Position numbers and translations under genes: made by a program. The notes beneath the pieces were generated by a model. That model was not told where the DNA came from and made no database searches. It saw only the letters and a program-made list of their open reading frames with translations. A stretch of 64,000 nucleotides of DNA, taken from Chelatococcus reniformis. Lineage in GTDB: Bacteria > Pseudomonadota > Alphaproteobacteria > Rhizobiales > Beijerinckiaceae. The stretch is from positions 3,935 to 67,934 of the forward strand of contig NZ_BMGG01000012.1 of the NCBI RefSeq assembly GCF_014640075.1. Direction: 5' to 3'. This document shows, piece after piece, positions 25,879-60,511 of the stretch. Every line of letters starts with the position of its first letter. Positions within the stretch are counted from its first letter, which is position 1.

Positions 25879-27168
25879 ATGAAATGGGGTGTGAAACAGC
25901 TGATGGCGGTGCTTGCCATCGGCGGCGGCATCGCGGCGGCGGCAGCGCCGGCGCAGGCGCAGGAGACGATCAAGGTCGGCATCCTGCACTCGCTTTCCGG
26001 CACCATGGCCATCAGCGAGACCACGCTCAAGGACGTGATGCTGATGCTGATCGAGGAGCAGAACAAGAAGGGCGGCGTGCTCGGCAAGAAACTCGAGGCG
26101 GTCGTCGTCGATCCGGCCTCCAACTGGCCACTGTTCGCCGAGAAGGCGCGGGAGTTGATCACCAAGGACAAGGTCTCGGTCGTGTTCGGCTGCTGGACCT
26201 CGGTCTCGCGCAAGTCGGTGCTGCCGGTGTTCAAGGAACTCAACTCGATCCTGTTCTATCCCGTCCAGTACGAAGGCGAGGAGAGCGAGCGCAACGTGTT
26301 CTACACCGGCGCCGCCCCCAACCAGCAGGCGATCCCGGCCGTCGACTACCTGATGAAGGATGAGGGCGTGAAGCGCTGGGTGCTGGCCGGCACCGACTAC
26401 GTCTATCCGCGCACCACCAATAAGATCCTCGAGGCGTACCTCAAGTCGAAGGGCGTTGCCGCGGAGGACATCATGATCAACTACACGCCGTTCGGGCACT
26501 CCGACTGGCAGACGATCGTCGCCGACATCAAGAAGTTCGGCTCCGCCGGCAAGAAGACGGCGGTGGTCTCGACCATCAACGGCGACGCCAACGTGCCCTT
26601 CTACAAGGAGCTCGGCAACCAGGGCATCAAGGCGACCGACATCCCGGTGGTGGCCTTCTCCGTCGGCGAGGAGGAGCTCGCCGGTCTCGACACCAAGCCC
26701 CTCGTCGGCCATCTCGCCGCCTGGAACTACTTCGAGTCGATCAAGACGCCGGCCAACGAAGCCTTCATCAAGGCCTGGCACGACTTCACCAAGAACCCCA
26801 AGCGCGTCACCAACGACCCGATGGAGGCCCACTACATCGGCTTCAACATGTGGGTGAAGGCGGTGGAGAAGGCCAAGTCGACCGATCCGGACAAGGTTAT
26901 CGCGGCGCTGCCGGGCACCAAGCAGGACAACCTCACCGGCGGCACCTCGGAGATGCTCGCCAACCACCACATCACCAAGCCGGTTTATATCGGCGAGATC
27001 GAGGCCGACGGCCAGTTCGACGTCGTCTGGAAGACCACCGAGCTGATCCCCGGCGCAGCCTGGTCGCCCTTCCTGGAAGGCTCCAAGGACCTCAAGGCCG
27101 ACTGGGTCGAGCTCAAGTGCGGCAACTTCAACACCAAGACCAACAAGTGCGGCGGCGCGTCCAACTAG
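25879..27168 (+). CDS. urtA: Urea ABC transporter, periplasmic binding protein UrtA
   Basis: 429 residues. A signal peptide (MAVLAIGGGIAAAAAPAQA) precedes ETIKVGILHSLSGTMAISET, the standard start of the UrtA/amide-binding branch of branched-chain amino acid binding proteins. Other typical stretches are VFGCWTSVSRKSVLPVFKEL, LNSILFYPVQYEGEESERNV, RWVLAGTDYVYPRTTNKILE and GHLAAWNYFESIKTPANEAF. It binds urea in the periplasm and hands it to UrtBC. ATG 25879 follows GGGAGGC. The stop codon TAG is formed by the edge of a dispersed repeat. It is separated from urtB by a 340-base repeat-filled gap, so the binding protein may be expressed more strongly than the rest. Confidence 0.95.
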   Translation: MKWGVKQLMAVLAIGGGIAAAAAPAQAQETIKVGILHSLSGTMAISETTLKDVMLMLIEEQNKKGGVLGKKLEAVVVDPASNWPLFAEKARELITKDKVSVVFGCWTSVSRKSVLPVFKELNSILFYPVQYEGEESERNVFYTGAAPNQQAIPAVDYLMKDEGVKRWVLAGTDYVYPRTTNKILEAYLKSKGVAAEDIMINYTPFGHSDWQTIVADIKKFGSAGKKTAVVSTINGDANVPFYKELGNQGIKATDIPVVAFSVGEEELAGLDTKPLVGHLAAWNYFESIKTPANEAFIKAWHDFTKNPKRVTNDPMEAHYIGFNMWVKAVEKAKSTDPDKVIAALPGTKQDNLTGGTSEMLANHHITKPVYIGEIEADGQFDVVWKTTELIPGAAWSPFLEGSKDLKADWVELKCGNFNTKTNKCGGASN

Positions 27169-27270
27169 AGCGCTTTCGAGCGAAGTGGACGCCGGTTCAC
27201 GTGAAGAAAACGCGATAAATCAAACAGTTAGAGCATTTCGACGATTCGAATGAACACAGAAATGCTCTAG
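27165..27270 (+). repeat. Dispersed ~100-bp repeat, copy 1 (after urtA)
   Basis: It runs CTAGAGCGCTTTCGAGCG, then GTGGACGCCGGTTCACGTGA and AAGAAAACGCGATAAATC, to GAAATGCTCTAG. Its right part is an imperfect hairpin (GAGCATTTCGAC...). The TAG at its left edge is the urtA stop. Further copies lie at 40007-40111, 50174-50271 and 60421-60511. Confidence 0.85.
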
Positions 27271-27313
27271 CGGCACTGCACGCGTGCACTTGAGGGTGCG
27301 TCCCCTCACCCGT

Positions 27314-27430
27314 CATGGCCGGGCTTGACCCGGCCATCCCTCCCCTGAGGACGCGCCCTTCAGTCAGCCCTCTCGGGCCGACGTTTGCCCTGTCGATCGA
27401 TGGCCGGCTCAAGCCCGGCCATGACGCGGG
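27314..27430. repeat. Pair of GGCCGGGC hairpins in inverted order between urtA and urtB
   Basis: GTCATGGCCGGGC with its complement nearby makes a hairpin at about 27317-27341. A second such unit (GCCCGGCCATGACGCGG side last) is at about 27401-27431. Together they also form a long inverted pair. They probably weaken read-through from urtA into urtB. Confidence 0.65.
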
Positions 27431-27508
27431 GAGGATATAGGGCAGCACCTGCCCGCGCCGGCGCCCGCGCCGGTCCCCTTGACCGCTTGGTAGTTGGCGG
27501 AGGTCCGT

Positions 27509-29107
27509 ATGGTGCGCCTGTTCGCGCTCGTTCTGTTGCTCGTCGGCGCCTTCGCCGGCCGTCCCGCCTGCGCGCAGGACCTCGACGCCGCCCTCGCCAA
27601 GCTCGCCGGCGCCAGCGGCTACGCGGAGATCGACGCCGGCGTCGCGGCGCTCGCGGCCACCGGCTCGCCGGACGCCTTGCCGATCATCGAAGCCCTGGGC
27701 GAGGGCCGCCTCTACGTCGACCCGCAGAGCGGGGTGCTCGTCCTCAAGACGGCGGATGGGCGCACCGTCGACGCCAAATCCGGTGCCGCCGTGAGCGCCA
27801 ACGCCGCCCAGCTCGCCGCGGTCCGCGTCAACAACCGGGTGCGACGGGCGATCGAATCCAGCATGGGCGCACTGCGGCTGGTCGCCAAGGACAGCGCCGT
27901 CCGCGCCGCCGCGGCGGACGCCGTGTTCAAGGCCCGCGATCCCGCCGCACTGCCGGCCATCGACCGAGCGCTGGCGCGCGAGACCGATGCCGGCGTCAAG
28001 CAGAAGCTCACCGAGGCGCAGGCCGCCGCCCGGCTGATGGACGGGGCCACCGGCGATGCCGACAAGATCGCGGCGGTCGCCGTCGTCTCCAAGCGCGGCG
28101 ATCAGGATGCGCTCAGCCTGCTGGGCGCCGCCGGCGCCCAGGCGAGCCCGGCGGTGAAGCCGGCCATCGAGAGCGCCACCGCCACGATCCAGAGCCGGCT
28201 CGCGCTGCTCGAGAACGTCCAGAACGTCTGGTACGGCATCTCGCTCGGCTCGGTGCTGCTGCTCGCCGCCATCGGGCTCGCCATCACCTTCGGCGTCATG
28301 GGCATCATCAACATGGCCCACGGCGAGATGGTCATGCTCGGCGCCTACACCACCTACGTGGTGCAGGAGGCCTCCCGCATCTATGCGCCGGGCCTGTTCG
28401 GCTGGACCCTGCCGGTCGCGGTGCCGCTCGCCTTCCTGATCGCCGGGCTGGTGGGGGTGCTGATCGAACGCACCGTGATCCGCTATCTCTACGGCCGGCC
28501 GCTGGAGACGCTGCTGGCCACCTGGGGCATCAGCCTGATCCTGCAGCAGGCCGTGCGCTCGGTGTTCGGACCCACCAACCGCGAGGTCGGCGCCCCCTCC
28601 TACATGTCGGGCTCGTTCGACGTCTTCGGCCTGTCGATCACCTATGGCCGCATGTGGATCGTGCTGTTCAGCCTGGTGGTCTTCCTGGGCCTGCTCGCCG
28701 TCCTGCGCGGCACCTCGTTCGGGCTGAAGATGCGGGCAGTGACCCAGAACCGGCGTATGGCCTCGTCCATGGGCATCCGCACGCCCTGGATCGACACCTT
28801 CGCCTTCGGCCTGGGCTCCGGCATCGCCGGCATCGCCGGCGTCGCCCTCGCTCAGATCGACAACGTCTCGCCCAACCTGGGCCAGGGTTACATCATCGAC
28901 AGCTTTCTGGTGGTGGTGTTCGGCGGCGTCGGCAATCTCTGGGGCACGCTGGTGGCGGCCCTGACGCTGGGTGTCGCCAACAAGCTGCTGGAACCCTTTG
29001 CCGGCGCGGTGCTCGGCAAGATCCTGCTGCTCATTTTCATCATCCTGTTCATCCAGCGGCGGCCGCGCGGGCTCTTCGCCCAGAAGGGCCGGGCGGTGGA
29101 AGCATGA
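27509..29107 (+). CDS. urtB: Urea ABC transporter, permease UrtB
   Basis: 532 residues. An N-terminal signal-like helix (LFALVLLLVGAFAGRPACA) is followed by a ~200-residue helical extracytoplasmic region typical of UrtB, then the LivH-type permease (GVMGIINMAHGEMVMLGAYT, LLATWGISLILQQAVRSVFG, LGQGYIIDSFLVVVFGGVGN). It forms the membrane channel together with UrtC. ATG 27509 has GGAGG about seven bases upstream; the TTG at 27494 is less likely. Its stop overlaps the urtC ATG (ATGA), so translation is coupled. Confidence 0.95.
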   Translation: MVRLFALVLLLVGAFAGRPACAQDLDAALAKLAGASGYAEIDAGVAALAATGSPDALPIIEALGEGRLYVDPQSGVLVLKTADGRTVDAKSGAAVSANAAQLAAVRVNNRVRRAIESSMGALRLVAKDSAVRAAAADAVFKARDPAALPAIDRALARETDAGVKQKLTEAQAAARLMDGATGDADKIAAVAVVSKRGDQDALSLLGAAGAQASPAVKPAIESATATIQSRLALLENVQNVWYGISLGSVLLLAAIGLAITFGVMGIINMAHGEMVMLGAYTTYVVQEASRIYAPGLFGWTLPVAVPLAFLIAGLVGVLIERTVIRYLYGRPLETLLATWGISLILQQAVRSVFGPTNREVGAPSYMSGSFDVFGLSITYGRMWIVLFSLVVFLGLLAVLRGTSFGLKMRAVTQNRRMASSMGIRTPWIDTFAFGLGSGIAGIAGVALAQIDNVSPNLGQGYIIDSFLVVVFGGVGNLWGTLVAALTLGVANKLLEPFAGAVLGKILLLIFIILFIQRRPRGLFAQKGRAVEA

Positions 29108-30303
29108 GCGGCGCGGGGACGAACTCCATGGGGCGCCGGCCGCTTCTGCTCAGCCTGATCGACGGCAAGGGCTGGATCTTCCTGGCGGTGGTCGCCGCCG
29201 CCGCCGTGCTGGTGCCGCTGCTCAATCTGGCGGTGCCGGAGGGCTCGGCCTTCCACGTGCCGACCTACGTCGTGGCGCTGCTGGGCAAATACCTCTGCTA
29301 CGCCCTGCTCGCGCTCGCCCTCGACCTGGTCTGGGGCTATTGCGGCATCCTCTCGCTCGGCCACGGCGCCTTCTTCGCCCTCGGCGGCTACGCCATGGGC
29401 ATGTATTTGATGCGCCAGATCGGCCCGCGCGGCGTCTACGCCAACCCGCTCCTGCCCGACTTCATGGTGTTCCTGAACTGGAAGGAGCTGCCGTGGTACT
29501 GGCACGGCTTCGACAGTTTCCCGTTCGCCGCGCTCATGGTGCTGCTGGTGCCCGGCCTGCTGGCGCTGGTGTTCGGCTGGCTGGCCTTCCGCTCGCGCGT
29601 CACCGGCGTCTACCTCTCGATCATGACGCAGGCGATGACCTTCGCCCTGCTGCTCGCCTTCTTCCGCAACGACATGGGTTTCGGCGGCAACAACGGCCTC
29701 ACCGATTTCAAGGACATCCTGGGCTTCAACGTGCAGGCGCAGACGACGCGTTGCGCCCTCTTCGTCGCCACCGCCATCGCGCTCGTGCTGGGCTACCTGG
29801 TCGCGCGCTACATGGTGACATCGACCTATGGCAAGGTGCTGGTCGCCATCCGCGACGCGGAATCGCGCACGCGGTTCCTCGGCTACCGGGTCGAGACCTA
29901 CAAGGTCGTCGCGTTCGTCGTCTCGGCCATGATGGCGGGCGTCGCCGGCGCGCTCTACGTGCCGCAGGTCGGCATCATCAACCCGTCGGAATTCTCGCCC
30001 GCCAATTCCATCGAGGCGGTGATCTGGGTCGCGGTGGGCGGCCGCGGCACCCTCGTCGGAGCCGCGCTCGGCGCCGTCCTCGTCAACTTCGGCAAGACCT
30101 ACCTCACCGGCGCGCTGCCGGAGATCTGGTTGTTTGCGTTGGGCCTGCTGTTCGTCGTGGTCACCCTGTTCCTGCCCAAGGGCATCGTCGGCCTGCTGAC
30201 GCAGAAGCGCCAGCAACGCCAGGAGATCTCGCCCCGGGACGAGAGCCTCGCCGCCGAAGCCGGCATCGGCGAGGCCGGCGCGGTGGAAGGAGGCAAAGCA
30301 TGA
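29104..30303 (+). CDS. urtC: Urea ABC transporter, permease UrtC
   Basis: 399 residues, LivM-type permease with about ten helices. Landmarks are LGKYLCYALLALALDLVWGY, CGILSLGHGAFFALGGYAMG, DMGFGGNNGLTDFKDILGF and VAIRDAESRTRFLGYRVETY. It pairs with UrtB. ATG 29104 overlaps the urtB stop; the Met at 29128 is a weaker alternative. The cytoplasmic tail (KRQQRQEISPRDESLAAEAG) is longer than the core needs. The stop overlaps the urtD start. Confidence 0.95.
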   Translation: MSGAGTNSMGRRPLLLSLIDGKGWIFLAVVAAAAVLVPLLNLAVPEGSAFHVPTYVVALLGKYLCYALLALALDLVWGYCGILSLGHGAFFALGGYAMGMYLMRQIGPRGVYANPLLPDFMVFLNWKELPWYWHGFDSFPFAALMVLLVPGLLALVFGWLAFRSRVTGVYLSIMTQAMTFALLLAFFRNDMGFGGNNGLTDFKDILGFNVQAQTTRCALFVATAIALVLGYLVARYMVTSTYGKVLVAIRDAESRTRFLGYRVETYKVVAFVVSAMMAGVAGALYVPQVGIINPSEFSPANSIEAVIWVAVGGRGTLVGAALGAVLVNFGKTYLTGALPEIWLFALGLLFVVVTLFLPKGIVGLLTQKRQQRQEISPRDESLAAEAGIGEAGAVEGGKA

Positions 30304-31058
30304 TCCCGGACCGAGGGCTCACCAACACCGTCCTCTACCTCGACGGCGTGTCGAAGACCTTCGATGGCTTCCGCGCCATCAACAATCTGGCCCTGACCCT
30401 CGAGCACGGCGAAATGCGGGCCATCATCGGCCCCAACGGCGCCGGCAAGACGACGATGATGGACATCATCACCGGCAAGACCAAGCCCGACGAGGGAGAC
30501 GTCTACTTCGACGGCACCACAGATCTCACGACCCTCGACGAGGCATCGATCGCCAACCTCGGCATCGGCCGCAAGTTCCAGAAGCCGACCGTGTTCGAGA
30601 GCCACACGGTGGCCGACAACATCCGCCTGGCGCTGAAGGACGAGCGGGGGCCCTGGTCGGCCCTGTTCGGCGCCCGCAACCGCATCGCGCCGGAACGCAT
30701 CGAGCACATCCTGGAGATCGTACGGCTGATCGACCACCACGAACGCCTGGCCGCCGACCTCTCGCACGGACAGAAGCAGTGGCTGGAGATCGGCATGCTG
30801 CTGGCCCAGGACCCCAAGCTGCTGCTCGTCGACGAGCCGGTGGCCGGCATGACCGACGCGGAGACCGCCGACACAGCGCGCCTGCTGCGCGAGATCGCCC
30901 GCGACCATTCGGTGGTGGTGGTGGAGCACGACATGGCCTTCGTGCGCGACCTCGACTGCAAGGTCACGGTGTTGCACGAAGGCTCGGTGCTGGCCGAAGG
31001 CACCATCGACGCGGTCTCCAGCAACGAGCGCGTCATCGAAGTGTATTTGGGGCGTTGA
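30300..31058 (+). CDS. urtD: Urea ABC transporter, ATPase UrtD
   Basis: 252 residues. Walker A is IIGPNGAGKTTMMDIITGKT, the Q loop is in FQKPTVFESHTVADNI, the ABC signature is the variant LSHGQKQWLEIGMLLAQDPK, and Walker B is LLLVDEPVAGMTDAET followed by the switch His in VVVVEHDMAFVRDLD. LSHGQKQWLEIGM is characteristic of UrtD and distinguishes it from LivG. It powers urea import at the cytoplasmic face. ATG 30300 overlaps the urtC stop by four bases. urtE starts eight bases downstream. Confidence 0.96.
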   Translation: MIPDRGLTNTVLYLDGVSKTFDGFRAINNLALTLEHGEMRAIIGPNGAGKTTMMDIITGKTKPDEGDVYFDGTTDLTTLDEASIANLGIGRKFQKPTVFESHTVADNIRLALKDERGPWSALFGARNRIAPERIEHILEIVRLIDHHERLAADLSHGQKQWLEIGMLLAQDPKLLLVDEPVAGMTDAETADTARLLREIARDHSVVVVEHDMAFVRDLDCKVTVLHEGSVLAEGTIDAVSSNERVIEVYLGR

Positions 31059-31066
31059 GGTCGGGC

Positions 31067-31762
31067 ATGCTGAACGTCGAAGCCATCGACCTCTACTACG
31101 GCGCCTCCCAGGCCCTGCGCGGCGTTTCGCTCCAGGCCCAGATCGGCCAGGTGACCTCAGTGCTCGGGCGCAACGGGGTCGGCAAGACCTCGCTGATGCG
31201 CGCCATCGTCGGCCAGCAGCCGATCGCCAGGGGCGCCGTGGTGTGGAACGGCGAGAACATCTCCAAGCTCGCCCCCTACGACCGCGCCCGGCGGGGCATC
31301 GCGGTGGTGCCGCAGGGGCGCGAGATCTTCCCGCTGCTCAGCGTCAAGGAGAACCTGGAGACCGGGTTTGCGCCCCTGCCCGCCAAGCAGCGCTTCGTGC
31401 CGCCCGAGATCTTCGAGCTGTTTCCCGTGCTCAAGGACATGCTCGGCCGCCGCGGCGGCGACCTCTCCGGCGGCCAGCAGCAGCAACTCGCCATCGGCCG
31501 CGCCCTGGTGACACGCCCGCGCCTGCTCGTCCTCGACGAGCCGACCGAGGGCATTCAGCCGTCGATCATCAAGCAGATCGGCCACGCCATCGACACCCTG
31601 CGCAAGGGCGGCCAGATGGCGATCGTGCTGGTCGAGCAATATTTCGAGTTCGCCCGCGACCTCTGCGACACCTATGCCGTCATGGACAGGGGCCAGGTCG
31701 TGCTGGCGGGCACGCGGGCGGGCATGGTCGAGGCCGACGTCCGTCAGCGTCTCTCCGTCTGA
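31067..31762 (+). CDS. urtE: Urea ABC transporter, ATPase UrtE
   Basis: 231 residues. Walker A is VLGRNGVGKTSLMRAIVGQQ, the signature LSGGQQQQLAIGRALVTRP, and Walker B RLLVLDEPTEGIQPSIIKQI. It belongs to the LivF branch, as UrtE does (VNVEAIDLYYGASQ-type start, here MLNVEAIDLYYGASQALRG). It forms the heterodimeric ATPase with UrtD. ATG 31067 follows GAGGTCGGGC. The operon appears to end here or to run on into ureE, 226 bases further. Confidence 0.95.
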   Translation: MLNVEAIDLYYGASQALRGVSLQAQIGQVTSVLGRNGVGKTSLMRAIVGQQPIARGAVVWNGENISKLAPYDRARRGIAVVPQGREIFPLLSVKENLETGFAPLPAKQRFVPPEIFELFPVLKDMLGRRGGDLSGGQQQQLAIGRALVTRPRLLVLDEPTEGIQPSIIKQIGHAIDTLRKGGQMAIVLVEQYFEFARDLCDTYAVMDRGQVVLAGTRAGMVEADVRQRLSV

Positions 31763-31988
31763 GTTCCGCGAACGCCGATCGCCGGTGCAGCGCCGGCGGC
31801 GGCCGCGTTGCCCTTCGCCCCGCGTTCCTTCCTGTTCTGAGCAGCGCCGCCGATCCCGACGGCGCCGGGCATGTCGCGCCGCGGACGCCCAAATCGCGCG
31901 GCCTGATGCGAGCGCGCGCTTTTGGGTATAGTTCAGGATGCCGGCCGGGTGTCGTCCGGCCTCATCGTGAGTTCGGAGCCGATCGCCC

Positions 31989-32606
31989 ATGAACCGTGCC
32001 ACCGCCATCGTCCGCCGCCCGGCCGTCAAGGCCGAGCGCGTCGTCGACACGCTCACCCTGGACCACGAGGCCCGGCAGAAGCGGCGGGTTGCGCTGACCG
32101 CCGAGGGCGGGCTGGAGCTGCTCGTCGATCTGGACAAGGCGACGCTGATCGACGACGGCGACGCGCTCAAGCTGGAGGACGGCCGGCTGGTCCAGGTCAA
32201 GGCCGCCGCCGAGGATCTGCTCGAGATCCGCGCCGAAAGCCCGCTGCGGCTGCTCAAGGCCGCCTGGCACATCGGCAACCGCCACACGCCGGCGGAGATC
32301 ACCGTGGAGGCGCTCTACATCGAGGCCGACCACGTGCTGGCCGAGATGGTGCGGGGCCAGGGCTGCAGCGTCACGCCGGTCAAGCGGCCATTCCGCCCCG
32401 AGCGGGGCGCCTACGAGACGGCCTGCGAGCACGACCATCACGGGCACCAGGCGCACGGCCACGGCCATGGCCATGGCCATGATCACGCGCATGAGCATGC
32501 ACACGCCAGCCATGATCACCATGGGCACGATCACCATGACCATGACTGCGGCTGCGGCCACGACCACCATGATCACGCGCGCGACCACCGCCACGCGCAC
32601 AAGTGA
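31989..32606 (+). CDS. ureE: Urease accessory protein UreE, nickel metallochaperone
   Basis: 205 residues. The N-terminal domain (DTLTLDHEARQKRRVALTAE, KATLIDDGDALKLEDGRLVQ) and the metal-binding domain (LRLLKAAWHIGNRHTPAEIT, EADHVLAEMVRGQGCSV) are complete. From about residue 145 the protein is a His-rich tail, alternating GHGHGHGHDHAHEHAHA-like and DHHDHDCGC blocks, with some 27 His. UreE delivers nickel to urease. The structural ureABC genes and ureFGD are not in the window, so ureE here belongs to the uptake block or its partners lie elsewhere. Acyl-CoA ligase B is convergent, 208 bases away. Confidence 0.95.
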   Translation: MNRATAIVRRPAVKAERVVDTLTLDHEARQKRRVALTAEGGLELLVDLDKATLIDDGDALKLEDGRLVQVKAAAEDLLEIRAESPLRLLKAAWHIGNRHTPAEITVEALYIEADHVLAEMVRGQGCSVTPVKRPFRPERGAYETACEHDHHGHQAHGHGHGHGHDHAHEHAHASHDHHGHDHHDHDCGCGHDHHDHARDHRHAHK

Positions 32607-34710: not shown

Positions 34711-34767
34711 GGGCGTCTGCTCCCTCTGTTTGTCCGGCTGCGGCCGCAATCGTTCCGCTCCGATGTT

Positions 34768-40006: not shown

Positions 40007-40111
40007 CTAGAGCATTTTCGAGCGAAGGGACGCCGGTTCGCGCGAAAGAAATGCGACAAAACAGATAAGTAGAGTATTTCCGAGATCCGGAGACATGCGG
40101 AAATACTCTAG
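40007..40111 (+). repeat. Dispersed ~100-bp repeat, copy 2 (between MFS and rrf2-type gene)
   Basis: It runs CTAGAGCATTTTCGAGCG, then GACGCCGGTTCGCGCGAAAG, to the hairpin GAGTATTTCCG ... CGGAAATACTC, ending TAG. Its right edge supplies the TAG stop of the regulator gene on the minus strand. The A/G changes in both hairpin arms (GTATT for GCATT) are compensatory. Confidence 0.85.
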
Positions 40112-40512
40112 TCGATCGCGGCCAGCAGGGCGGCCAATTTGGTGCGCCGGAAGGTCTGGTCGACGGCCTCGCTCGCCGCATCGAAGACCGGCGTCAGCGA
40201 GCCTGCCATGGCCCGATAGATCGGACAGCGCGGATTGCCCGTGGGCCGCAGCGCGAACAAGTCGCCGCCGACGGCCTTGTGAACATCCTCGAGCGTGATC
40301 TCGGCCGCCGGACGCCGGAGCGCCACGCCGCCGTGGCGGCCCGCTCGCAGGTCGACGATCCCGGCTCGCTCCAGGGACTTCAGGATGCGCCTCACCACCA
40401 CCGGATTGGTCTTGAGGCTCTTGGCGATGGCAGCCGACGTCGTGCTGTCGCCGACGCGGGCGATGAAGCAGAGGATCTGGGTCGCGCCGGCGAGAAGGCT
40501 GTTGGCCGCCAT
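40108..40512 (-). CDS. Rrf2-family transcriptional regulator
   Basis: 134 residues. The winged helix is AGATQILCFIARVGDSTTSA, AIAKSLKTNPVVVRRILKSL and ERAGIVDLRAGRHGGVALRR, the last being the Rrf2 wing. LEDVHKAVGGDLFAL follows. The three Cys of the IscR/NsrR iron-sulfur site are not present as a group; there is a single Cys in NPRCPIYRAM. It therefore resembles cluster-free members such as YwnA. A 9-bp palindrome covers its start codon, suggesting autorepression. It probably also controls the MFS gene downstream. ATG 40512. Confidence 0.88.
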   Translation of the reverse strand: MAANSLLAGATQILCFIARVGDSTTSAAIAKSLKTNPVVVRRILKSLERAGIVDLRAGRHGGVALRRPAAEITLEDVHKAVGGDLFALRPTGNPRCPIYRAMAGSLTPVFDAASEAVDQTFRRTKLAALLAAID

Positions 40513-49002: not shown

Positions 49003-49050
49003 CCTCGAGGCGGCACTGGGCCGACCAGCCCGGCGCGGCGTCGCTCGGCG

Positions 49051-49925: not shown

Positions 49926-50177
49926 ATGAACATCGCTGGCAGCGCCTTCGACCGGCTCGACCCCGATGCCGGCCTGCCGCCCGCCGGCGGCGCCGACCTG
50001 GCGCGTGATCTGCGGGCCGACATGCCCTGGCTCTCCGGCCAACAGATTCAGACGATCGTCGACCGCGACCGCGAGCTGCGGCGGCGTATCGACACCTTCG
50101 GCCATCTGTCGAGCCTCATGTGGCTGCTCGGCACGGCGGGCGCGGCCGCCCTGATCCTGCTGACGCTGCGGTTCTAG
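49926..50177 (+). CDS. Small protein with C-terminal membrane helix
   Basis: 83 residues. A soluble part (LARDLRADMPWLSGQQIQTI, DRDRELRRRIDTFGH) is followed by a membrane helix (LSSLMWLLGTAGAAALILLT) and LRF. No family is known to me. The TAG stop is formed by the edge of repeat copy 3. ATG 49926 starts the part with good codon bias; the frame is open upstream. Confidence 0.55.
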   Translation: MNIAGSAFDRLDPDAGLPPAGGADLARDLRADMPWLSGQQIQTIVDRDRELRRRIDTFGHLSSLMWLLGTAGAAALILLTLRF

Positions 50178-50271
50178 AGCATTTCCGCGTTTCTTCGAAT
50201 CGCCGCAATGCTCTATCTGTTTGCGTTTTCTTCACGCGAACCGGCGTCCACTTCGCTCGAAAACGCGCTAG
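50174..50271 (-). repeat. Dispersed ~100-bp repeat, copy 3
   Basis: Inverted relative to copies 1 and 2: hairpin CTAGAGCATTTCCGCG ... GCAATGCTCTA first, then ACGCGAACCGGCGTCCACTT and the end GCGCTAG. The TAG at its left edge closes the small membrane protein gene. A different element (GAGCATGATCCC...) follows directly and ends near 50345. Confidence 0.85.
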
Positions 50272-50537
50272 AGCATGATCCCAAAAGGCCGGTACCGGTC
50301 TGGGCAAGTTTCCCAAACAAAGACTTGGAACGGGATGATCGTTCAATGAAAATCATCTCGCTTTCGACGCTGGGGCGGCCTCCCACCGATCGGGTGGACG
50401 GCCCGTCGGGACAAGATGTGCGTCCGCACGGGCAGCGCGAGCCTGCGGGTGGGCCATGCCGGGGCCGCCGTGCCATGCGCAGCCCGAGGTTGATGGGTGG
50501 CCGGGAATGATTAAAATCGCTCCGAATGGGAGGAGCG
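50272..50537. other. Second repeat-like element and gap
   Basis: AGAGCATGATCCCAAAAGG, CCGGTACCGG and GGGATGATCG (50272-50340) resemble the GAGCATGATCC... palindromes common in Rhizobiales genomes. The rest is unassigned. Confidence 0.45.
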
Positions 50538-53046: not shown

Positions 53047-54051
53047 TCACTGGACGGCGAGAGCCTTCTTGATCAGTTCGCCGCCACCCTTCACCTTCTC
53101 GGCGTAGTTCTTGTAGGAGCTTTCCTGCGCCACCTTGAGCCAGGCGTCGTAATCGGACGCGGACATCTCCACCACCTCGACGCCGGCCTTCTTGTAGGCG
53201 TCGATCAGCTTCTGATCACCCTTGCGCACCTCCTGCGCGAACCAGGTCTGTGCCTTCTTGCCGGCGTCCAGGATGGCTTTCTGCTGCGCGGGGCTCAGCC
53301 GGTTGAACACCTGCTTGGACATCAGCACGGGCTCGTACATGAACCATAGGGCGTTGGCCCCCGGCGCCGTCAGGCACTTCACCTGCTCGTAGAGGCGGTA
53401 GGAGACGAAGCTCTCGGACGAGGTGTTGGTCGCGTCGAGCACGCCCGTCTGCATGCCCGAATAGATTTCCGAGGATGGCATGGACGAGATGGAGGCGCCC
53501 GCTGCGGCGAGCATCTGCTCGAAGGCGGGGCCGGCGGCTCGGGTGACCTGCCCCTTGATGCTGTCGGGACCGGTGATGCAGCCCTTCTTGGAAGCGAAGG
53601 CGCCGGACAACCAGGCATCGGCGATCACGATGGCGCCCTGCTTGTCGACGATCGCCTTGATCTCCTGCATGAAAGGCGAGTCGTTCAGGCGCTCGGCGCG
53701 ATCGAAGTTCCGCACCAGGCCCGGCATCAGCGTGGCCGAGAACTGGGGCACGCGGCCGGAGGCGTAGTCGAGCGGGAAGGACGACATGTCGAGCTGGCCC
53801 TTGGTCAGCGCGCCCCACTGCTCGTTGGCCTTGAACAGCGACGAGCCGGGGAAGACCTGGACCTTGAGGCCGACTTTGGCCGCCTCGACGTCGCGGGCGA
53901 TCATCTGCACCATCTCGTCGCGGGGATCGCCCTTGCCGCCCGGAAACTGGTGGGACGCACGCAGCGTGACGTCCTGCGCGAAGGACGAGGTGGCAAATGC
54001 CAATGCGCAGCCTACGGTCAGAGCGCGCGCAATCGAACGCGTACCGGCCAT
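53047..54051 (-). CDS. dctP: TRAP transporter, solute-binding protein (DctP)
   Basis: 334 residues. A signal peptide (RSIARALTVGCALAFATSSF, cleavage near AQD) precedes the DctP fold: VTLRASHQFPGGKGDPRDEM, LKVQVFPGSSLFKANEQWGA, and the ligand-binding loop MPSSEIYSGMQTGVLDATNT with a conserved Arg earlier (GPDSIKGQVTRAAGPAFEQM). It captures an organic acid in the periplasm and loads DctQM. The ligand is unknown. It heads the operon, 142 bases before dctQ, with GGAGGAC before ATG 54051. Confidence 0.92.
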   Translation of the reverse strand: MAGTRSIARALTVGCALAFATSSFAQDVTLRASHQFPGGKGDPRDEMVQMIARDVEAAKVGLKVQVFPGSSLFKANEQWGALTKGQLDMSSFPLDYASGRVPQFSATLMPGLVRNFDRAERLNDSPFMQEIKAIVDKQGAIVIADAWLSGAFASKKGCITGPDSIKGQVTRAAGPAFEQMLAAAGASISSMPSSEIYSGMQTGVLDATNTSSESFVSYRLYEQVKCLTAPGANALWFMYEPVLMSKQVFNRLSPAQQKAILDAGKKAQTWFAQEVRKGDQKLIDAYKKAGVEVVEMSASDYDAWLKVAQESSYKNYAEKVKGGGELIKKALAVQ

Positions 54052-54950
54052 GCTGTCCTCCTCTTTTGCCGCCTGGCGGCGGGCGGTTGACGTTTCCTCA
54101 ACGTATTCTTGACCGGGCGGTTGATCCGCCCGCCCTGTTCCGGTTGCCCGGAGCCGAACCCACCCTAGGCGATCCGGCGATAAATGTCCTTTGGCGGTCG
54201 TGTAGGACGTTCGTCTGAACCTCGCCCCCGCGCGGCAGGTGGCGACGCGCCCGCCGGCGTGCCATTGATCGCCGCGCCGGAAGCAAAAACGCATCGGCGC
54301 GGCCGCCCTGATAGGCCGAAAACTCCGTCACCACTCGACCCGCTACTATTGCTCCAGCAGAATGATGATCTATCCAATATGGTCCGAGTTGGTCGTGGGC
54401 CGGACTTCAGCCGATGCTGCGGCCGAACGGCGTGCCTTGCTGCCGCTGCCCGTCTTCGGCATAGGCGTGCTTCACCGGCAGTGAGGGACGCCGAGCCGCC
54501 CACGCTCCGCCTCGTCATGCTCGCGGCCATCCTCGGCCTCAGGCGGCGCGGCGAACGATGCGAGGCGGCGAGACGCGGGACGGGCAAAACGACGTCAAAT
54601 AGACAATCTGCTCTCCACAGCTGCTTCTGTAGCGAATTCTCGCGCCAGCACGCTATGAGGCAGCTCTGGCATCGCCTCTCCGACACGTCACCACAACTGT
54701 TGCAAGCCTGAAACTCGCGCTTTGAAAAGCTTCGATGCCCCGCCGAGACAGGCGCCCCCAAGTCCAACGTCGTCTTATGACGGGTTCAGAAGCGGGGACT
54801 GGCGCCATGTTCCGATCAGACGGGCTCATCCAATCGAGGCGAATGTCCGCATTTCTAAACCCGTTCGCACTTGCCTGACCTCTGAGGCTTCTGACGTTGC
54901 GCCGTCGCGAGCGGTGCCAGGGCAGATGGTGATGCTCAGATCACGGGGGG
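54052..54950. other. Long gap between the TRAP operon and the Hint gene
   Basis: About 900 bases with no convincing gene. It probably includes the dctP promoter and the left, unmarked border of the decayed island that ends at tRNA-Glu. I could not find a copy of the tRNA-Glu 3' end here. Confidence 0.4.
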
Positions 54951-55868
54951 CTAGGCGGCCGCGGCGCCGACGAAGCCCAGCGCCTCGGCCCGCGTCGCGA
55001 GCCGTTCTCGTACGGCCCGCGGCAGCTGGCGCGCCGACTTGATGCGCGGCAGCTCCAATTCCGGCAGCCGCGCCTCGCATGCACCGAACAGCGCCTCGTA
55101 CTCGGCGTAATTGTCGAAGCGGCGGCGGGTGACGTTGTCGACGAATGTTTCGGCCGGCGCGCCCTCGGCGAGCACCAGCGCGTGGTCCTCCAGTTCGATG
55201 TGGTAGTAGGTGAAGCGCTCCTCAGGCTGCTCCACGCGGGTGATCGTAGTGCCATTCACCAAGGCGCCGGCCTGTACCAAAACGTCGTCGACCAGCAGGG
55301 CGTGGTCGGGCGAGACGTAGAGGTCACGGACGGGCACGCCCTCGGCCAGGGCCCCGGCCATGATGCGAACGGGATAGCACGTTGAGGGATCGGCGAACGT
55401 CGCGGCCACCGCTTGACGCCCGATCCAAAGGATATGCCGGCTCCGGCCATCGGCGGTGAGAACCAGGTCGCCTCTGACGAGATCCTCGACTGCAACGTCG
55501 CCATCCGGTGTAGCGATTCGTGTGCCAGCCAAGAAGCAGGCAACGAATTCGCCGGAGTTCGTGATCTGGAAGCTGCCCGCCGTAAATTCCACTGCGAAGC
55601 TTCTCCCCATGATGTCTGCAACAGGAGTTGCCGCTGGCGCGAGAAAGAAAATGGGGTTTGTGCTAGAATTTGATGAGAACTGCGCGAAGACGCTATCTTC
55701 AGAGAAGCCGAGCACCTTTATGGCAAGACCGGTAGCGAGAGGGATGACACTGCCGACCGGATACTCGCCGGGAGAGATGGCATAATTGCCGCCTACTCCG
55801 TTTATCAGAAGAGAATTGCTAACCTGATCGTAACTTCCTGAGTATAGCCTCACCGAATAGTCTGCCAT
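54951..55868 (-). CDS. Hint-domain (Hedgehog/intein-type) protein
   Basis: 305 residues. Residues 1-110 form a beta-rich N-terminal domain (ADYSVRLYSGSYDQVSNSLL). The Hint_2 domain begins with Cys111 in VACFLAGTRIATPDGDVAVE, then DLVRGDLVLTADGRSRHILW and the second motif RDLYVSPDHALLVDDVLVQA (His189), followed by EERFTYYHIELEDHALVLAE. A helical tail ends the protein (LPRAVRERLATRAEALGFVG). Such stand-alone Hint proteins are common in alphaproteobacteria and may self-cleave at the Cys, but their role is unclear. ATG 55868 follows GGGGGGG. The 5' half is AT-richer than the core. A broken relative lies at 7735-8044. Confidence 0.85.
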   Translation of the reverse strand: MADYSVRLYSGSYDQVSNSLLINGVGGNYAISPGEYPVGSVIPLATGLAIKVLGFSEDSVFAQFSSNSSTNPIFFLAPAATPVADIMGRSFAVEFTAGSFQITNSGEFVACFLAGTRIATPDGDVAVEDLVRGDLVLTADGRSRHILWIGRQAVAATFADPSTCYPVRIMAGALAEGVPVRDLYVSPDHALLVDDVLVQAGALVNGTTITRVEQPEERFTYYHIELEDHALVLAEGAPAETFVDNVTRRRFDNYAEYEALFGACEARLPELELPRIKSARQLPRAVRERLATRAEALGFVGAAAA

Positions 55869-56129
55869 GGAGCCCCCCCAACTCTGATTGCGACGGCACA
55901 TCATACGCGCCCAGCCATCTCTCGCATAGGCGAGGCTCTGGCGTGGTACAACGTTGTGGTGCGTCGCACAATGGGGCTCGTCACCAGGTTGTCGATAGTG
56001 GGGCGCCCGACTGTCGGCGGAGCCTTTTGCATTCCGGAACCCGCCCGTCGCAGCTAGCTGCGCGTTAGGCTTCGATCTCGCAGGGCCAGTCTAGCTAGGG
56101 AGGTCTGCCACGAGGGCTGCCCCTCTCGG
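55869..56129. other. Gap without a recognisable gene
   Basis: About 260 bases. No supported feature apart from the presumed Hint gene promoter. Confidence 0.35.
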
Positions 56130-56424
56130 GGCTTCGGATGCGTCGGGGCGCGAATCTCTGCGTCATCGAGAACGGCCCTGGGATGTCCGCGCGGCGGTCG
56201 AGCGCCAAGCCGGCCAGCAGGCCGACCAGCACCATGCCGACCGCTGGCGGGCGGGGCGAACGCCCATCGTGCTGCACCTGGGCGATCATGACCCGTCGGG
56301 CCTGGACATGACCCGCGACAACGGCGAGCGCCTGAGGATGTTCGCACGGTCAGATGTCCGGGTCGTTCGGCTGGCGCTCGACTGGGACCGCTTCTCCAGC
56401 GCGCCCCCTCAAGGAACATTGTGA
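56130..56424 (+). pseudogene. Fragment of a phage-type protein with a TOPRIM-like motif
   Basis: The plus-strand frame ending in a TGA at 56424 reads RTPIVLHLGDHDPSGLDMTR, then DNGERLRMFARSDVRVVRLA. This 'LHLGDHDPSG-DMTRD' block is known to me from hypothetical proteins of phages and prophages of Rhizobiales. The part before about 56130 is missing and the end is abrupt, so only a piece survives. Confidence 0.5.
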
Positions 56425-56669
56425 TGGAGCTGGACAAGGACCTACGTGACGACGCCGAGGGCGAGCTGATCGATGCCCAGAGCTTCGCGTTAACGATCGC
56501 CTGTCGTGGTGGCCGGTGGCAGGTGAGCTGCGTCGATTTCGACGTCCCGGATCCAGAGCCGGATCCCAAGAGCGACCTAATCGAGATGAGCATTGGAGAA
56601 GGGAATAGCTTCACAGAGGCTTGGCACAACCAGGCGCCACCATGGGCCAGGCGGATCTGGGCATCGTGA
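56424..56669 (+). CDS. Small hypothetical protein of the island
   Basis: 81 residues: MELDKDLRDDAEGELIDAQS, then CRGGRWQVSCVDFDVPDPEP and a short acidic end. Its ATG overlaps the stop of the phage-type fragment. No family recognised. It may be an intact phage accessory gene. Confidence 0.4.
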   Translation: MELDKDLRDDAEGELIDAQSFALTIACRGGRWQVSCVDFDVPDPEPDPKSDLIEMSIGEGNSFTEAWHNQAPPWARRIWAS

Positions 56670-56914
56670 TCCTCGACCTCGGCAAGGGCTCCCCGCAACC
56701 GGATCCGAATTCGGCGCCGATCTGTCAACCGGACCCGGAGGGGCCGGCGCCGGCCGCCACCGCGTGCCAGCGCCGTGAGCGCCTGATCGAAGCTCTTCGC
56801 CAACCGCAGCGTGCCGCCCTATCCGACCGCGCGCTCGGCCGGCAGTTCGGCGTCTCGCCGCAGACCGTCACCACCTGGCGCCGGAAGCTCGCCGAGGAGG
56901 CTCTCCAACGATGA
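56642..56914 (+). CDS. Small helix-turn-helix protein of the island
   Basis: 90 residues. The first half is Pro/Asp-rich (DPNSAPICQPDPEGPAPAAT), the second an HTH: RERLIEALRQPQRAALSDRA, LGRQFGVSPQTVTTWRRKLA. Probably a phage regulator. ATG 56642 lies inside the end of the preceding ORF in another frame. Confidence 0.45.
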   Translation: MGQADLGIVILDLGKGSPQPDPNSAPICQPDPEGPAPAATACQRRERLIEALRQPQRAALSDRALGRQFGVSPQTVTTWRRKLAEEALQR

Positions 56915-56971
56915 CGCGCGCAGCTCAATCTGAGCGCCACCTCGCGCTGCCTCGCACCCTGGCGCCGACGC

Positions 56972-57611
56972 ATGCCGGCACCCAAGGAGGTGAAGAAGGG
57001 GCACCACTCGTGGACCCTGGACGAGGTCGAGCAGTTTGAGAGCACCCACCCGTGGCACGAAGGCGAGGCCGGCGACGGCGCTGCTGCTCTATTCGGCCCG
57101 CCGGCGCGAGGACGCCGTGCGGCTCGGCCCGCAGCACATCCGCGGCGGCTGGCTCAAATACACGCAGGCCAAGGGCGAGGATCTTGCCGATCGGGAGCCG
57201 GTCGATGTCGAGGTGCCGGTGCACCCCGATCTCGACGAGGTGATCGCAGGCACCAAGATCACGCACCTCACATTCCTGGCCACCCAGCAAGGACGAGCCA
57301 GAACGCCAGCCGGCTTCGGCAACGTCTTTCGTGAGTGGTGCGACGCGGCTGGGCTACCACATTGCTCGGCGCACGGCCTCCGCCACGCCATGGCCGCGCG
57401 GCTGGCAGAACGCGGAGCTTCACCCCATCAGATCATGTCGGTGACGGGGCACAAGACGCTCGCAGAGGTGCAGCGCTACACCAAGGCGGCGGACCGCCGG
57501 GGCACGGCAAAGGCGGCCATGGGCCTGCTCACCGAGCCTGAAACGGGAACAGAAATTGTCGCACCTCAAGTCGAGGTTCAGAAAAGTGCGACAATTAGGG
57601 GAAAAAGCTGA
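56972..57611 (+). pseudogene. Tyrosine recombinase (phage-type integrase), 5' truncated and frameshifted
   Basis: The first frame gives KKGHHSWTLDEVEQFESTHP and is lost at about 57050. The +1 frame then carries on RGTKARPATALLLYSARRRE, DAVRLGPQHIRGGWLKYTQA and the catalytic core: the Arg in RRREDAVRL, HGLRHAMAARLAERGASPHQ (H-x-x-R), VTGHKTLAEVQRYTKAADRR (H and Tyr). The SAM-like N-terminal domain before KKGHH is missing. All core catalytic residues survive. It lies 26 bases from tRNA-Glu, the probable attachment site of this island. Confidence 0.75.
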
Positions 57612-57637
57612 GGATAATCAACGCGTCTGAAAAGAGG

Positions 57638-57713
57638 TGGCGCTCCCAAGGGGACTCGAACCCCTGTTTTCGCCGTGAGAGGGCGACGTCCTAGACCGCT
57701 AGACGATGGGAGC
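57638..57713 (-). tRNA. tRNA-Glu (anticodon CTC)
   Basis: 76 bases on the minus strand: acceptor GCTCCCA / TGGGAGC, D arm TCTAGCGGTCTAGGA, anticodon arm TCGCC-CTCTCAC-GGCGA with CTC at positions 34-36, T arm AGGGGTTCGAGTCCCCT, encoded GCCA. CTC reads GAG (Glu). Its 3' end faces the broken integrase. Confidence 0.95.
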
Positions 57714-57852
57714 TTCCAAACGCGGAAGCGGTCGTATAACGATATCGCGCCGCGCATTCAAGCGTCTTCTGCCGATCGTGGGCAGCGAAAATGCGCCCGG
57801 CCGCCTCCGCACTCACACATCTCCGATTGGCCACCATCTCTCGCCGCGGCTC

Positions 57853-58992
57853 ATGACATCGCCCCCCGCCAACCAACGACCCATCCGCACCACACCGGCC
57901 GGGGCGGACGACGATGCCGTAGAGGCCGACGTTCTGCCGCTGGAGGACGATGGCGAGGAAGACGTGGGCGAGGAGGACGAGGGCGTGGGCGGCGAGCAGC
58001 ACACGGTCGTGGCCGCGGCGGATGGCCGGCTCGACCGGATCCTCGCGGCGGCGCTGCCGGAGCTGTCGCGCACCCGCCTGCAGCAGCTGGTCCGCGCCGG
58101 GGCCGTCCGCATCGGCGCGGGGCTCGCCGACACCCCGTCGCTGAAGATCGCGGCCGGCGAGACCATCGCCCTGATCGTGCCGCCGCCGAGTCCCGCGGCG
58201 CCCGCGGGCGAAGCCATCCCGCTGACGGTGCTCTATGAGGACGACGAGTTGCTGGTGGTCGACAAGCCGGCGGGCATGGTGGTGCACCCCGCCGCCGGCC
58301 ACCACACCGGCACCCTCGTCAACGCGCTCATCGCCCACTGCGGCGCCTCGCTCTCCGGCATCGGCGGCGTGCGCCGGCCGGGCATCGTGCATCGGCTCGA
58401 CAAGGACACCAGCGGCCTGATGGTGGTGGCCAAGACCGACCGAGCCCATGCCGCCCTGTCGCGGCAATTCGCCGATCACGGCCGGACCGGCCCGCTCGAG
58501 CGGGCCTATCTCGCGCTGGCCTGGGGGGGCTTGCCGGTGGGCGGGCTGAGCATCGACAGGCCGCTCGCCCGCAGCACCCGCAATCGCGAAAAAATTGCCG
58601 TGGCGCCGCCTGGACAGGGGCGTGAGGCGATCACACATGTCGAGGTCGGCGCAATTTGGCCCGCGAGCCAGGAACCGGTGGTTTCGCTTTTGCGTTGTGA
58701 GCTAGAGACCGGTCGAACTCATCAGATTCGCGTACATCTGGCCTCGCTGGGCCATCCGCTGCTGGGCGACCCGCTGTATGGCGGGGGCTTCAGGACCAAG
58801 GCGGCGCTGCTACCGTCCGTCGCGCGCGAGTGCCTGGTGGCGCTGGGCCGTCAGGCGCTCCATGCGGGCGTGCTCGGGTTTGCTCATCCGACGACAGGCG
58901 AGGCTCTTTCCTTCACGAGCGAGCCCCCCGGCGATCTTGCGGCGTTGGCGCAATCGCTCGGTTTCGACACACGGAGCCTGCTTCAGCGCTGA
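57853..58992 (+). CDS. rluD: RNA pseudouridine synthase, RluC/RluD family
   Basis: 379 residues. The acidic N-terminal extension (GEEDVGEEDEGVGGEQHT) precedes an S4 domain (GRLDRILAAALPELSRTRLQ, QLVRAGAVRIGAGLADTPSL). The catalytic domain follows: LYEDDELLVVDKPAGMVVHP, RPGIVHRLDKDTSGLMVVAK with the catalytic Asp, CELETGRTHQIRVHLASLGH and HPLLGDPLYGG. It converts uridines of 23S rRNA; RluD (helix 69) is the likeliest type. ATG 57853 keeps the extension but clears the tRNA. rluD next to rpoH is the usual Rhizobiales order. Confidence 0.92.
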   Translation: MTSPPANQRPIRTTPAGADDDAVEADVLPLEDDGEEDVGEEDEGVGGEQHTVVAAADGRLDRILAAALPELSRTRLQQLVRAGAVRIGAGLADTPSLKIAAGETIALIVPPPSPAAPAGEAIPLTVLYEDDELLVVDKPAGMVVHPAAGHHTGTLVNALIAHCGASLSGIGGVRRPGIVHRLDKDTSGLMVVAKTDRAHAALSRQFADHGRTGPLERAYLALAWGGLPVGGLSIDRPLARSTRNREKIAVAPPGQGREAITHVEVGAIWPASQEPVVSLLRCELETGRTHQIRVHLASLGHPLLGDPLYGGGFRTKAALLPSVARECLVALGRQALHAGVLGFAHPTTGEALSFTSEPPGDLAALAQSLGFDTRSLLQR

Positions 58993-59011
58993 TGTGCGCC
59001 AGCGCACATCA
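58990..59011. terminator. Hairpin over the rluD stop codon
   Basis: Perfect 10-base arms (TGATGTGCGC and its complement) around CA begin at the TGA stop itself. The inner pairs would open to a small loop. Without a T run it may serve to pause or protect the 3' end before rpoH. Confidence 0.5.
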
Positions 59012-59240
59012 TGCCGGTCGCCGACCCGTCATAGTCGCACAACCACGAGCCGCCTCGCCCGCGACAGGGAAAAACTGTCGCCATCGTGACCGACGTCATC
59101 GGATGTCGATCTCACCGAGCAACGGCCACCAGCTGCAGGCCCTCATTCGGCCACCGTCGGTGCAGCACAATGACGAACGGCTGGCACAACCCGCAGCCGT
59201 CCGGGCGCTCGCCTGAAAGGGAGCGCGGAAGGAGGTTCAC

Positions 59241-60158
59241 ATGGCCGCAGCATCTCTTCCGGCGTTAGCCAACGAAGGCGGACTGTCTCGCTACCTCGAG
59301 GAAATCCGCAAGTTCCCCATGCTCGAGCCGCAGCAGGAATTCATGCTGGCCAAGCAGTGGCGTGAACATGGCGACCGCGATGCGGCACACAAGCTCGTAA
59401 CGTCACACCTCCGTCTCGTCGCGAAGATCGCGATGGGCTATCGCGGCTACGGCCTGCCGATCTCCGAGGTGGTGTCCGAGGGCAACGTCGGCCTGATGCA
59501 GGCCGTGCGGCGCTTCGAACCGGATAAGGGCTTCCGCCTTGCCACGTACGCCATGTGGTGGATCAAGGCCGCCATTCAAGAGTATATCCTGAGATCGTGG
59601 TCGCTGGTGAAGATGGGCACCACGGCCAACCAGAAGAAGCTGTTCTTCAACCTGCGCAAGGCCAAGGGCCGCATCTCGGCGCTGGAGGAGGGCGATCTCA
59701 AGCCCGACCAGGTCAAGTACATCGCCGAGAAGCTCGGCGTGCCCGAGCAGGACGTGGTGGACATGAACCGCCGGCTCGGCGGCGACGCCTCGCTCAACTC
59801 GCCCCTGCGGGCAGGGGGTGAAGGCGATGGCGAGTGGCAGGATTGGCTGGTCGACGATAGCGCCAGCCAGGAATCGCTCCTCGTCGCCGACGAGGAGAGC
59901 CAGAACCGGCACAAGGCGCTTCTGGAGGCGCTCGGCGTGCTCAACGAGCGCGAGCGCCGCATCTTCGAGGCGCGGCGCCTGGCGGAGGACCCGATCACCC
60001 TGGAGGAACTCTCCGCGGAGTTCGGCGTGTCGCGCGAGCGGGTGCGCCAGATCGAGGTGCGCGCCTTCGAAAAGGTGCAGGAGGCGGTGAAGAAAGGCGT
60101 CGCGCGGCTCGAAGCGCCTCGCGCGGCGCGGCCGATGCTGGAGGCTTCGCCGTCCTGA
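59241..60158 (+). CDS. rpoH: RNA polymerase heat-shock sigma factor RpoH
   Basis: 305 residues. Region 1.2/2.1 is LSRYLEEIRKFPMLEPQQEF, then RLVAKIAMGYRGYGLPISEV; regions 2.3-2.4 are RRFEPDKGFRLATYAMWWIK, AAIQEYILRSWSLVKMGTTA. The RpoH box QKKLFFNLRKAKGRI is present. Region 4.2 is LEELSAEFGVSRERVRQIEV. It directs transcription of chaperones and proteases. AGGAGG lies before ATG 59241. Rhizobiales often have two RpoH proteins, so this may be one of a pair. A strong terminator follows. Confidence 0.97.
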   Translation: MAAASLPALANEGGLSRYLEEIRKFPMLEPQQEFMLAKQWREHGDRDAAHKLVTSHLRLVAKIAMGYRGYGLPISEVVSEGNVGLMQAVRRFEPDKGFRLATYAMWWIKAAIQEYILRSWSLVKMGTTANQKKLFFNLRKAKGRISALEEGDLKPDQVKYIAEKLGVPEQDVVDMNRRLGGDASLNSPLRAGGEGDGEWQDWLVDDSASQESLLVADEESQNRHKALLEALGVLNERERRIFEARRLAEDPITLEELSAEFGVSRERVRQIEVRAFEKVQEAVKKGVARLEAPRAARPMLEASPS

Positions 60159-60201
60159 CCGGCGGCGTGGCCCGAGGCCGCGCCGTATCGCAGCATACCA
60201 T

Positions 60202-60234
60202 GTATGGCCGGGCCCCGCGCCCGGCCATACTTTT
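60202..60234 (+). terminator. Intrinsic terminator of rpoH
   Basis: A perfect 12-bp stem, GTATGGCCGGGC (60202-60213) with its complement at 60219-60230, loop CCCGC, then TTTT. It lies 43 bases after the rpoH stop. Confidence 0.85.
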
Positions 60235-60420
60235 GCCTGCGGTCCCCCGCGCCCGCGCGTCTCGTCTGGCCGCGAGTGATGGGGGTTCGCGGCAACCGCC
60301 CGAGCAGACCTGGAGCGCTCCTTTAATCAGGTCAGTCGCTCTGATCGGAAAATGCGCATAACCTTTTGAAACCGGCGTGCGTCTCTCGCGATGGGTGCTT
60401 CCCCCCATCGCGAAGCGCCT
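60235..60420. other. Gap before the last repeat copy
   Basis: About 190 bases after the terminator, no gene visible. The short inverted match CGCGATGGG ... CCCATCGCG (about 60390-60413) forms a small hairpin. Confidence 0.4.
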
Positions 60421-60511
60421 GGAGCATTTCCGCGTTCTTCGAATCGCCGAAATGCTCTATCTGTTTGATTTGTCGCATTTTCTTCACGCGAACCGGCCGA
60501 AAACGCTCTAG
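60421..60511 (-). repeat. Dispersed ~100-bp repeat, copy 4
   Basis: Same orientation as copy 3: GGAGCATTTCCGCG ... CGAAATGCTCTA hairpin, CTGTTTGATTTGTCGCATTT, CACGCGAACCGG and the end CGCTCTAG. It lacks the ~9-base GTCCACTTC part seen in copy 3. Its right edge supplies the TAG stop of the minus-strand gene at 60508. Confidence 0.85.

Follow-up and report, generated by a model that had tools for sequence, protein, structure and literature searches.

The window analyzed here is a stretch of 64,000 nucleotides of the Chelatococcus reniformis genome (6.81 Mb in 39 contigs), corresponding to positions 3935-67934 of contig NZ_BMGG01000012.1 (C12). It contains four copies of a repeat of about 104 bp, each of which overlaps the stop codon of an adjoining predicted gene. 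Copy 1 (27166-27269, + strand) lies at the end of the gene for a urtA-type substrate-binding protein (25879-27168, + strand; Pfam Peripla_BP_5, E = 1.9e-162), and its edge TAG at 27166-27168 is the urtA stop. Copy 2 (40008-40110, + strand) meets the gene for an Rrf2-type regulator on the opposite strand (40108-40512, - strand; Pfam Rrf2, E = 1.5e-25), the stop of which is the CTA at 40108-40110, read as TAG on the - strand. Two predicted genes with no Pfam match end in the remaining copies: an 83-aa gene (49926-50177, + strand) in copy 3 (50175-50270, - strand), with its stop TAG at 50175-50177, and a 443-aa gene (60508-61839, - strand) in copy 4 (60420/60421-60510, - strand), with its stop at the CTA of 60508-60510 (TAG on the - strand). 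The reconstructed target of copies 1, 2 and 3 is CTAG.

The repeat and its copies

The initial annotation, made from the letters of the window, had proposed that the four copies belong to one repeat with common edges and that an edge TAG is in every case the in-frame stop of the adjoining gene. Alignment of the copies (84% mean column identity) confirmed a single repeat, and the stop assignment held at all four. The edges are common to the family but not identical in all copies: the first edge reads TAGAGCATTTTCGAG in copy 2 and TAGCGCGTTTTCGAG in copy 3, and copy 4 has TGGAGC at its far edge. A second repeat, beginning TAGAGCATGATCCCAAAA, abuts copy 3 at 50269-50340; a similar stretch is found at L046:3254-3359.

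The genome was sampled as 80 stretches of 20 kb at 60-kb spacing on contigs C1-C7, giving 1.664 Mb together with the window. This sample contains 69 near-full copies, with a mean pairwise identity of 0.88. Matches below 80 bits, such as truncated copies, were excluded; one of these, at L077, also provides a predicted stop. The consensus built from the 69 copies, TAGAGCGTTTTCGAGCG...GCGGAAATGCTCTA, is 104 bases long, counting the TA at both ends. It folds into two hairpins, the first pairing positions 5-12 with 41-48 and 15-19 with 31-35, and the second, after a linker, pairing 64-74 with 94-104 and having TAGAGC and GCTCTA as its feet. Terminal inverted repeats are present, short and imperfect, each end reading inward as TAGAGC(G/A)TTT(T/C)C. 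The repeat is too short to hold a transposase gene and occurs in many near-identical copies, as is typical of a miniature inverted-repeat transposable element (MITE). Across the whole 6.81 Mb, a 20-base core was matched 256 times with up to 3 mismatches, against a single match for the reversed control. In a survey of 149 genomes of the same bacterial family, allowing 2 mismatches, 40 had at least one core match, some of the single ones probably by chance (the control gives single matches in ten genomes), and 17, including this one, had at least five.

The linker consensus is AATCAAACAGATA. The IHF consensus WATCAANNNNTTR was matched with at most one mismatch in 30 of the 69 copies (exactly in 1), against 1% of random 104-mers; since the copies are related, these matches count as one observation. 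No Rfam family matches the copies, and the sole Rfam matches of the window are two tRNAs. At L072, two copies lie in tandem (874-977 and 976-1079) with one TA in common, as would result if one copy had entered the terminal TA of its neighbor.

Stop codons, targets and empty sites

Stops and edges were counted with a gene finder trained on the sampled DNA. The tabulation of copies against stop codons suggested in the initial annotation showed that 35 of 69 copies have an edge TAG that is exactly a gene stop, and that in one of these copies both edges do so; without the window, the count is 31 of 65. The edge serving as stop was on one side of the element in 20 cases and on the other in 16. At 90 edges a converging gene ended within 400 bp: 36 of these genes stopped exactly at the edge and none entered the element. 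All 69 copies are intergenic, with none inside a predicted gene. The reading frame was also assessed independently of gene calls, from the best coding open frame in the 150 bases leading to each edge. No such frame was found at 104 of the 136 edges; at the others, the frame of the TAG and the other two frames scored 32:0:0. Thus, the TAG was in frame in 32 of 32 cases, compared with about a third at random positions (155:166:173); other CTAG sites gave 60:93:11. The same test gave 4:0:0 in genome G127 (35 edges) and 3:0:0 in genome G105 (10 edges). With four stops out of four, the window was somewhat lucky, yet the stop pattern is not chance. The repeat family makes 35 of the 290 predicted TAG stops in the sample, about 1 in 8.

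Other hairpin families beginning TAGAGC are also found at predicted stops of this sample, for example at L032:10669 and L089:16301. After other TAG stops, AGC follows in 16 of 255 cases, compared with 25 of 923 after TGA stops.

For orthologue comparison, 17 gene ends were typed and 11 followed up; one had no alignment, leaving 10 genes. These gave 19 orthologues in two genomes of the same genus (G001 and G002), 51-85% identical across the last 80 residues. Measured from the start of the match, length was identical in 14 of the 19 and within 2 residues in 18, with stops distributed as TGA 12, TAG 6 and TAA 1. The genes ending at copies are therefore not shortened by the element. One of the six orthologues with a TAG stop (L268) has a different TAGAGC hairpin at that stop.

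Annotated copies were found on plasmids. The variant of genome G127 matched 131 plasmid records (56 from Sinorhizobium, 49 from Rhizobium, 11 from Shinella and others), 36 of which have a place covering at least 80% of the query. Full-length matches occur in Rhizobium; the Sinorhizobium matches among those listed cover about 57-60% of the query. Eighteen plasmid regions were read. Two unannotated regions, one partial match and four strains with the same site as another (H10, same as H8; H15, H16 and H21, same as H13) were set aside, leaving 11 distinct sites. An annotated coding sequence (CDS) stops exactly at the element edge in 7 of the 11 (Xanthobacter H6, Methylovirgula H24, Rhizobium H26 and H45, Shinella H9, H46 and H47), not an unbiased rate, since the regions were hand-picked from the listed matches, some for the gene under the match. 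In H9 and H47, converging genes use both edges as stops. The other four sites (H7, H8, H12 and H13) have no CDS stop at an edge.

The target was reconstructed from the base before the left TA and the base after the right TA in the 48 copies for which both edges were found. It reads CTAG in 32 copies, CTAA/TTAG in 10 and another tetramer in 6. For two copies, the flanks when joined resemble repeats that occur uninterrupted at other places of this genome, with 82% identity over 100 bases and 85% over 47.

Empty sites were available for two genes. On a plasmid of Rhizobium leguminosarum Vaf-108, the empty gene for a ROK regulator reads GGC-TAG, then TACACC. The occupied site of strain BIHB 1217 reads GGC-TAG...GCTC-TAG-TACACC, with the element between two copies of TA, and the annotated ROK CDS ends at the same base in both. 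Three further empty ROK records also end GGC-TAG. The gene for L-idonate dehydrogenase ends TTTTAG where occupied (Rhizobium sp. BT04) and TTTTAA where empty (R. anhuiense). Annotated CDS ends agree to the base between occupied and empty records. These empty sites display the duplication of the target TA, base for base in one strain at the ROK gene and with one extra A at the dehydrogenase gene. The TA belongs to the host and is duplicated, the G belongs to the element, and a TAA stop can become TAG. Read from the far edge, the stop before insertion at the stop-site copies of this genome was TAG in 22 of 28 and TAA in 6 of 28. The initial annotation was thus right in proposing stop codons or CTAG targets as the sites of insertion: the element enters at TA, and the empty sites show this TA already in the host stop. 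It had also considered that the pattern would be chance if the TAG were never part of the element. This proved half true, the final TAG being shared by host (TA) and element (G).

Genes of the window were also compared with their relatives. A scan with urtA kept 80 loci (75-89% identity), none of which is close enough to give an empty site; they hold four partial matches to the element (L151, L125, L126 and L127, from Bradyrhizobium) and no full copy. A scan of 41 genomes with the Rrf2 protein of copy 2 returned distant homologues only (24 of 41 matched, with 43% as the best identity outside this genome) and no empty site.

The ROK stop showed two further arrangements. Strain Norway of R. leguminosarum has a different element at the very same stop TAG (L388:502-616, compared with L371 and L383), also with two hairpins: a GAACAGGAT hairpin, the linker AAATCAAAGAAA and a TAGAGCATGAT hairpin. 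In R. brockwellii, the site carries no element and reads CTAGAGCCTAG (L385:500-515), which looks like the short remnant of an excised element.

Proposed route of insertion and persistence at gene ends

Altogether, we consider the repeat, with high probability, to be a miniature transposon that is non-autonomous, duplicates TA, favors CTAG and persists at the stops that it leaves intact. The repeat is probably mobile. The two-hairpin element of about 104 bp would be inserted at TA by a transposase supplied in trans, which would itself be of a TA-duplicating, CTAG-preferring kind, from either the IS630/Tc1-mariner or the IS5/IS427 group. Both ends begin GAGC when read inward, so that the junction of TA with the G reads TAG. 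As this G is supplied by the element, a TAG or TAA stop that receives the element at its TA ends up as TAG, and the protein does not change. CTAG is scarce in genes and comparatively frequent at stops. Insertions in genes or between divergent promoters would be removed by selection, and those at stops, being harmless, would persist. This distribution of CTAG and removal elsewhere would explain why surviving copies cluster at the 3' ends of genes, with about half of the copies lying exactly at a stop.

The distribution of copies was compared with the sites available. Outside the copies, the sample holds 170 CTAG in genes, 70 in stop codons and 313 in other sequence. The 69 copies comprise 26 between convergent genes, 37 between tandem genes, 2 between divergent genes and 4 at the ends of stretches, where the intergenic sequence available is 28.7 kb (convergent), 130.4 kb (tandem) and 62.4 kb (divergent). 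A converging gene end within 400 bp is missing for 3 of the 69 copies, compared with 170 of 383 empty CTAG sites outside genes. The initial annotation had also suggested that 3' ends recruiting the element are selected. The copies are indeed concentrated 3' of genes, but among CTAG sites no more than 50 bp from a gene end, those in stops and those outside stops are filled as they are available (17:6 occupied, 70:24 available). Special recognition of stops is thus unnecessary, and two filters suffice: TA-duplicating insertion that prefers CTAG, and loss of the copies that fall in genes and promoters.

Several points weigh against this interpretation. In G127 and G105, the stop lies at the edge in just 4 of 20 and 4 of 15 copies, and 2 copies in each genome were placed inside predicted genes, by a gene finder for which about 0.2 Mb of each genome served as training. 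The target was unreadable in 21 of the 69 copies, which lack TAG/CTA at one or both edges and were left out of the target table. Among the four empty ROK records, Vaf-108 alone matches base for base on both sides, the other three differing just past the stop, and the extra A of the dehydrogenase site lies at the right junction of BT04. We infer the second filter, purifying selection, from the distribution of copies only. Finally, DDE_3 and DDE_Tnp_1 being the only transposase families searched, no transposase with the ends of the element was found among the 3 DDE_3 and 10 DDE_Tnp_1 matches of this genome and 30 loci of the 76 DDE_Tnp_1 matches in eight relatives. Three of the DDE_Tnp_1 loci in this genome are bounded by inverted ends (TAGGAGCGTGTC, TAGCAGGGTGTT and TAGAGGCTGTT), with C-TA on one side and TA-G on the other, and in G158, a genome with 113 core matches, an 843-bp stretch with a DDE_Tnp_1 match has the ends TAGAGCGCGTTGACATT (TAGAGCGCGTT ends). 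The ends of the element are absent from these three loci and from the 843-bp insertion sequence. A permissive scan for the end sequence gave too much noise to be useful, with no autonomous element among the matches listed.

The hairpins themselves might keep copies at 3' ends, by terminating transcription in both directions or by protecting the 3' ends of mRNA, the overlap with stops being a consequence. We regard this as possible but rather unlikely on the sequence evidence; it is compatible with a transposon and may add to it. All four copies of the window fold better than shuffled sequence (z from -2.9 to -4.3), and the density of copies is highest between convergent genes and close to nil between divergent ones. 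However, the stems show few double changes (9 and 4, with 8 of the 9 at one pair; means 2.3 and 1.4 and maxima 8 and 7 in shuffles) and many broken cells (40 and 63), and on these counts a conserved functional fold was rejected. The compensatory change in the hairpin of copy 2, which had been taken as a sign that the fold matters, was confirmed, yet only 4 double changes in total were counted in that stem, as opposed to 63 broken cells. The substitution pattern is thus weak evidence for a maintained fold. Moreover, either edge can serve as stop, so that it matters little which way round the element lies with respect to the gene.

Alternatively, the insertion machinery could aim at stops or gene 3' ends, through translation termination, transcript ends or convergent supercoiling, with no filtering by selection. 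The excess at stops (26 of the 48 target-resolved copies, where 7.3 would be expected from tetramer sites outside genes) and the different element at the same ROK stop in strain Norway speak for such aiming. The filling of stop and non-stop CTAG near gene ends in proportion to their availability speaks against it, and loss of promoter and coding insertions yields the same picture; we consider it improbable. Insertion within genes near their ends, with the edge TAG as the first stop met, would also place stops at the edges of 35 copies, but two thirds of such genes should then enter the element and none of 36 does, and together with the frame counts, the orthologues that end at the same place and the empty sites that already have the stop, this refutes truncation for the sites examined.

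As a TA-duplicating miniature transposon, the repeat illustrates how a high-copy element can live in a gene-dense genome, with stop codons as neutral docking sites at which it supplies the third base itself. With about one predicted TAG stop in eight coming from a single family, a mobile element has a part in shaping both stop usage and 3' ends. For any genome, the prediction is that TA-targeting elements with ends beginning in G should sit on stops. More tentatively, stops may harbor an entire superfamily of mobile elements with two hairpins in Hyphomicrobiales. Their GA(G)-type ends would turn TAG and TAA targets into TAG, and the families would compete for stops, as the two found at one ROK stop might suggest, and rewrite stop usage; such ends could have evolved as a cost-free way to spread in gene-dense genomes.

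Comparison with known systems

RIME1, a Rhizobium-specific intergenic mosaic element (RIME) attributed to Osteras 1995, is reportedly about 108 bp long with two palindromes; neither a target site nor a link to stop codons is known to have been described for RIME. By description, our repeat is alike in its 104 bp, its two hairpins and its absence from predicted genes (0 of 69 copies). It likewise occurs in Rhizobium (full-length matches) and Sinorhizobium (about half-length in the records listed). RIME are presented as rhizobial intergenic repeats in PMC2573895. A second resemblance is to the Bru-RS repeats of a related genus, palindromes of 103-105 bp associated with a YTAR-targeting insertion sequence (PMC2266754, PMC2267715). 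The likeness, by description only, lies in the size, the palindromes and the YTAR-type insertion sequence.

The target of the repeat agrees with those published for insertion sequences. IS630 duplicates TA and prefers TA within CTAG (PMC2170065, the preference coming from a title cited there), IS711 targets YTAR with duplication of TA (PMC2266754), and the IS427 group makes mostly 2-bp duplications (PMC3281130). In contrast to the repeat, insertion sequences of the IS630/Tc1-mariner and IS5/IS427 groups encode their transposase, and none of those examined has the ends of the repeat. MITEPsy1 of Pseudomonas syringae, a 100-nt MITE that inserts at CTAG or YTAA (PMC3189936), differs in its 4-nt duplication, its ends and its few copies, and the part of that paper available makes no link to stop codons.

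Searches of the literature by topic and by sequence letters found no description of this repeat among the results listed; the nearest statement, from 2013, is that termini of repetitive extragenic palindromes (REPs) often supply TAG stops (PMC3733652). The GTAG REPs of that work are likewise hairpin repeats between unidirectional and convergent genes. However, they are 20-40 bp long, with GTAG at one foot, and are tied to tyrosine transposases, whereas our repeat is 104 bp long, duplicates TA and mostly has C before the TAG, with GTAG (on either strand) in 3 of 48 targets. REP termini as TAG stops (PMC3733652), a CTAG-targeting MITE (PMC3189936) and rhizobial mosaic elements as an old class were thus already known. 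What the present analysis contributes is a mechanism supported by empty sites, together with the counts and the finding that a TAA stop can be converted into TAG.

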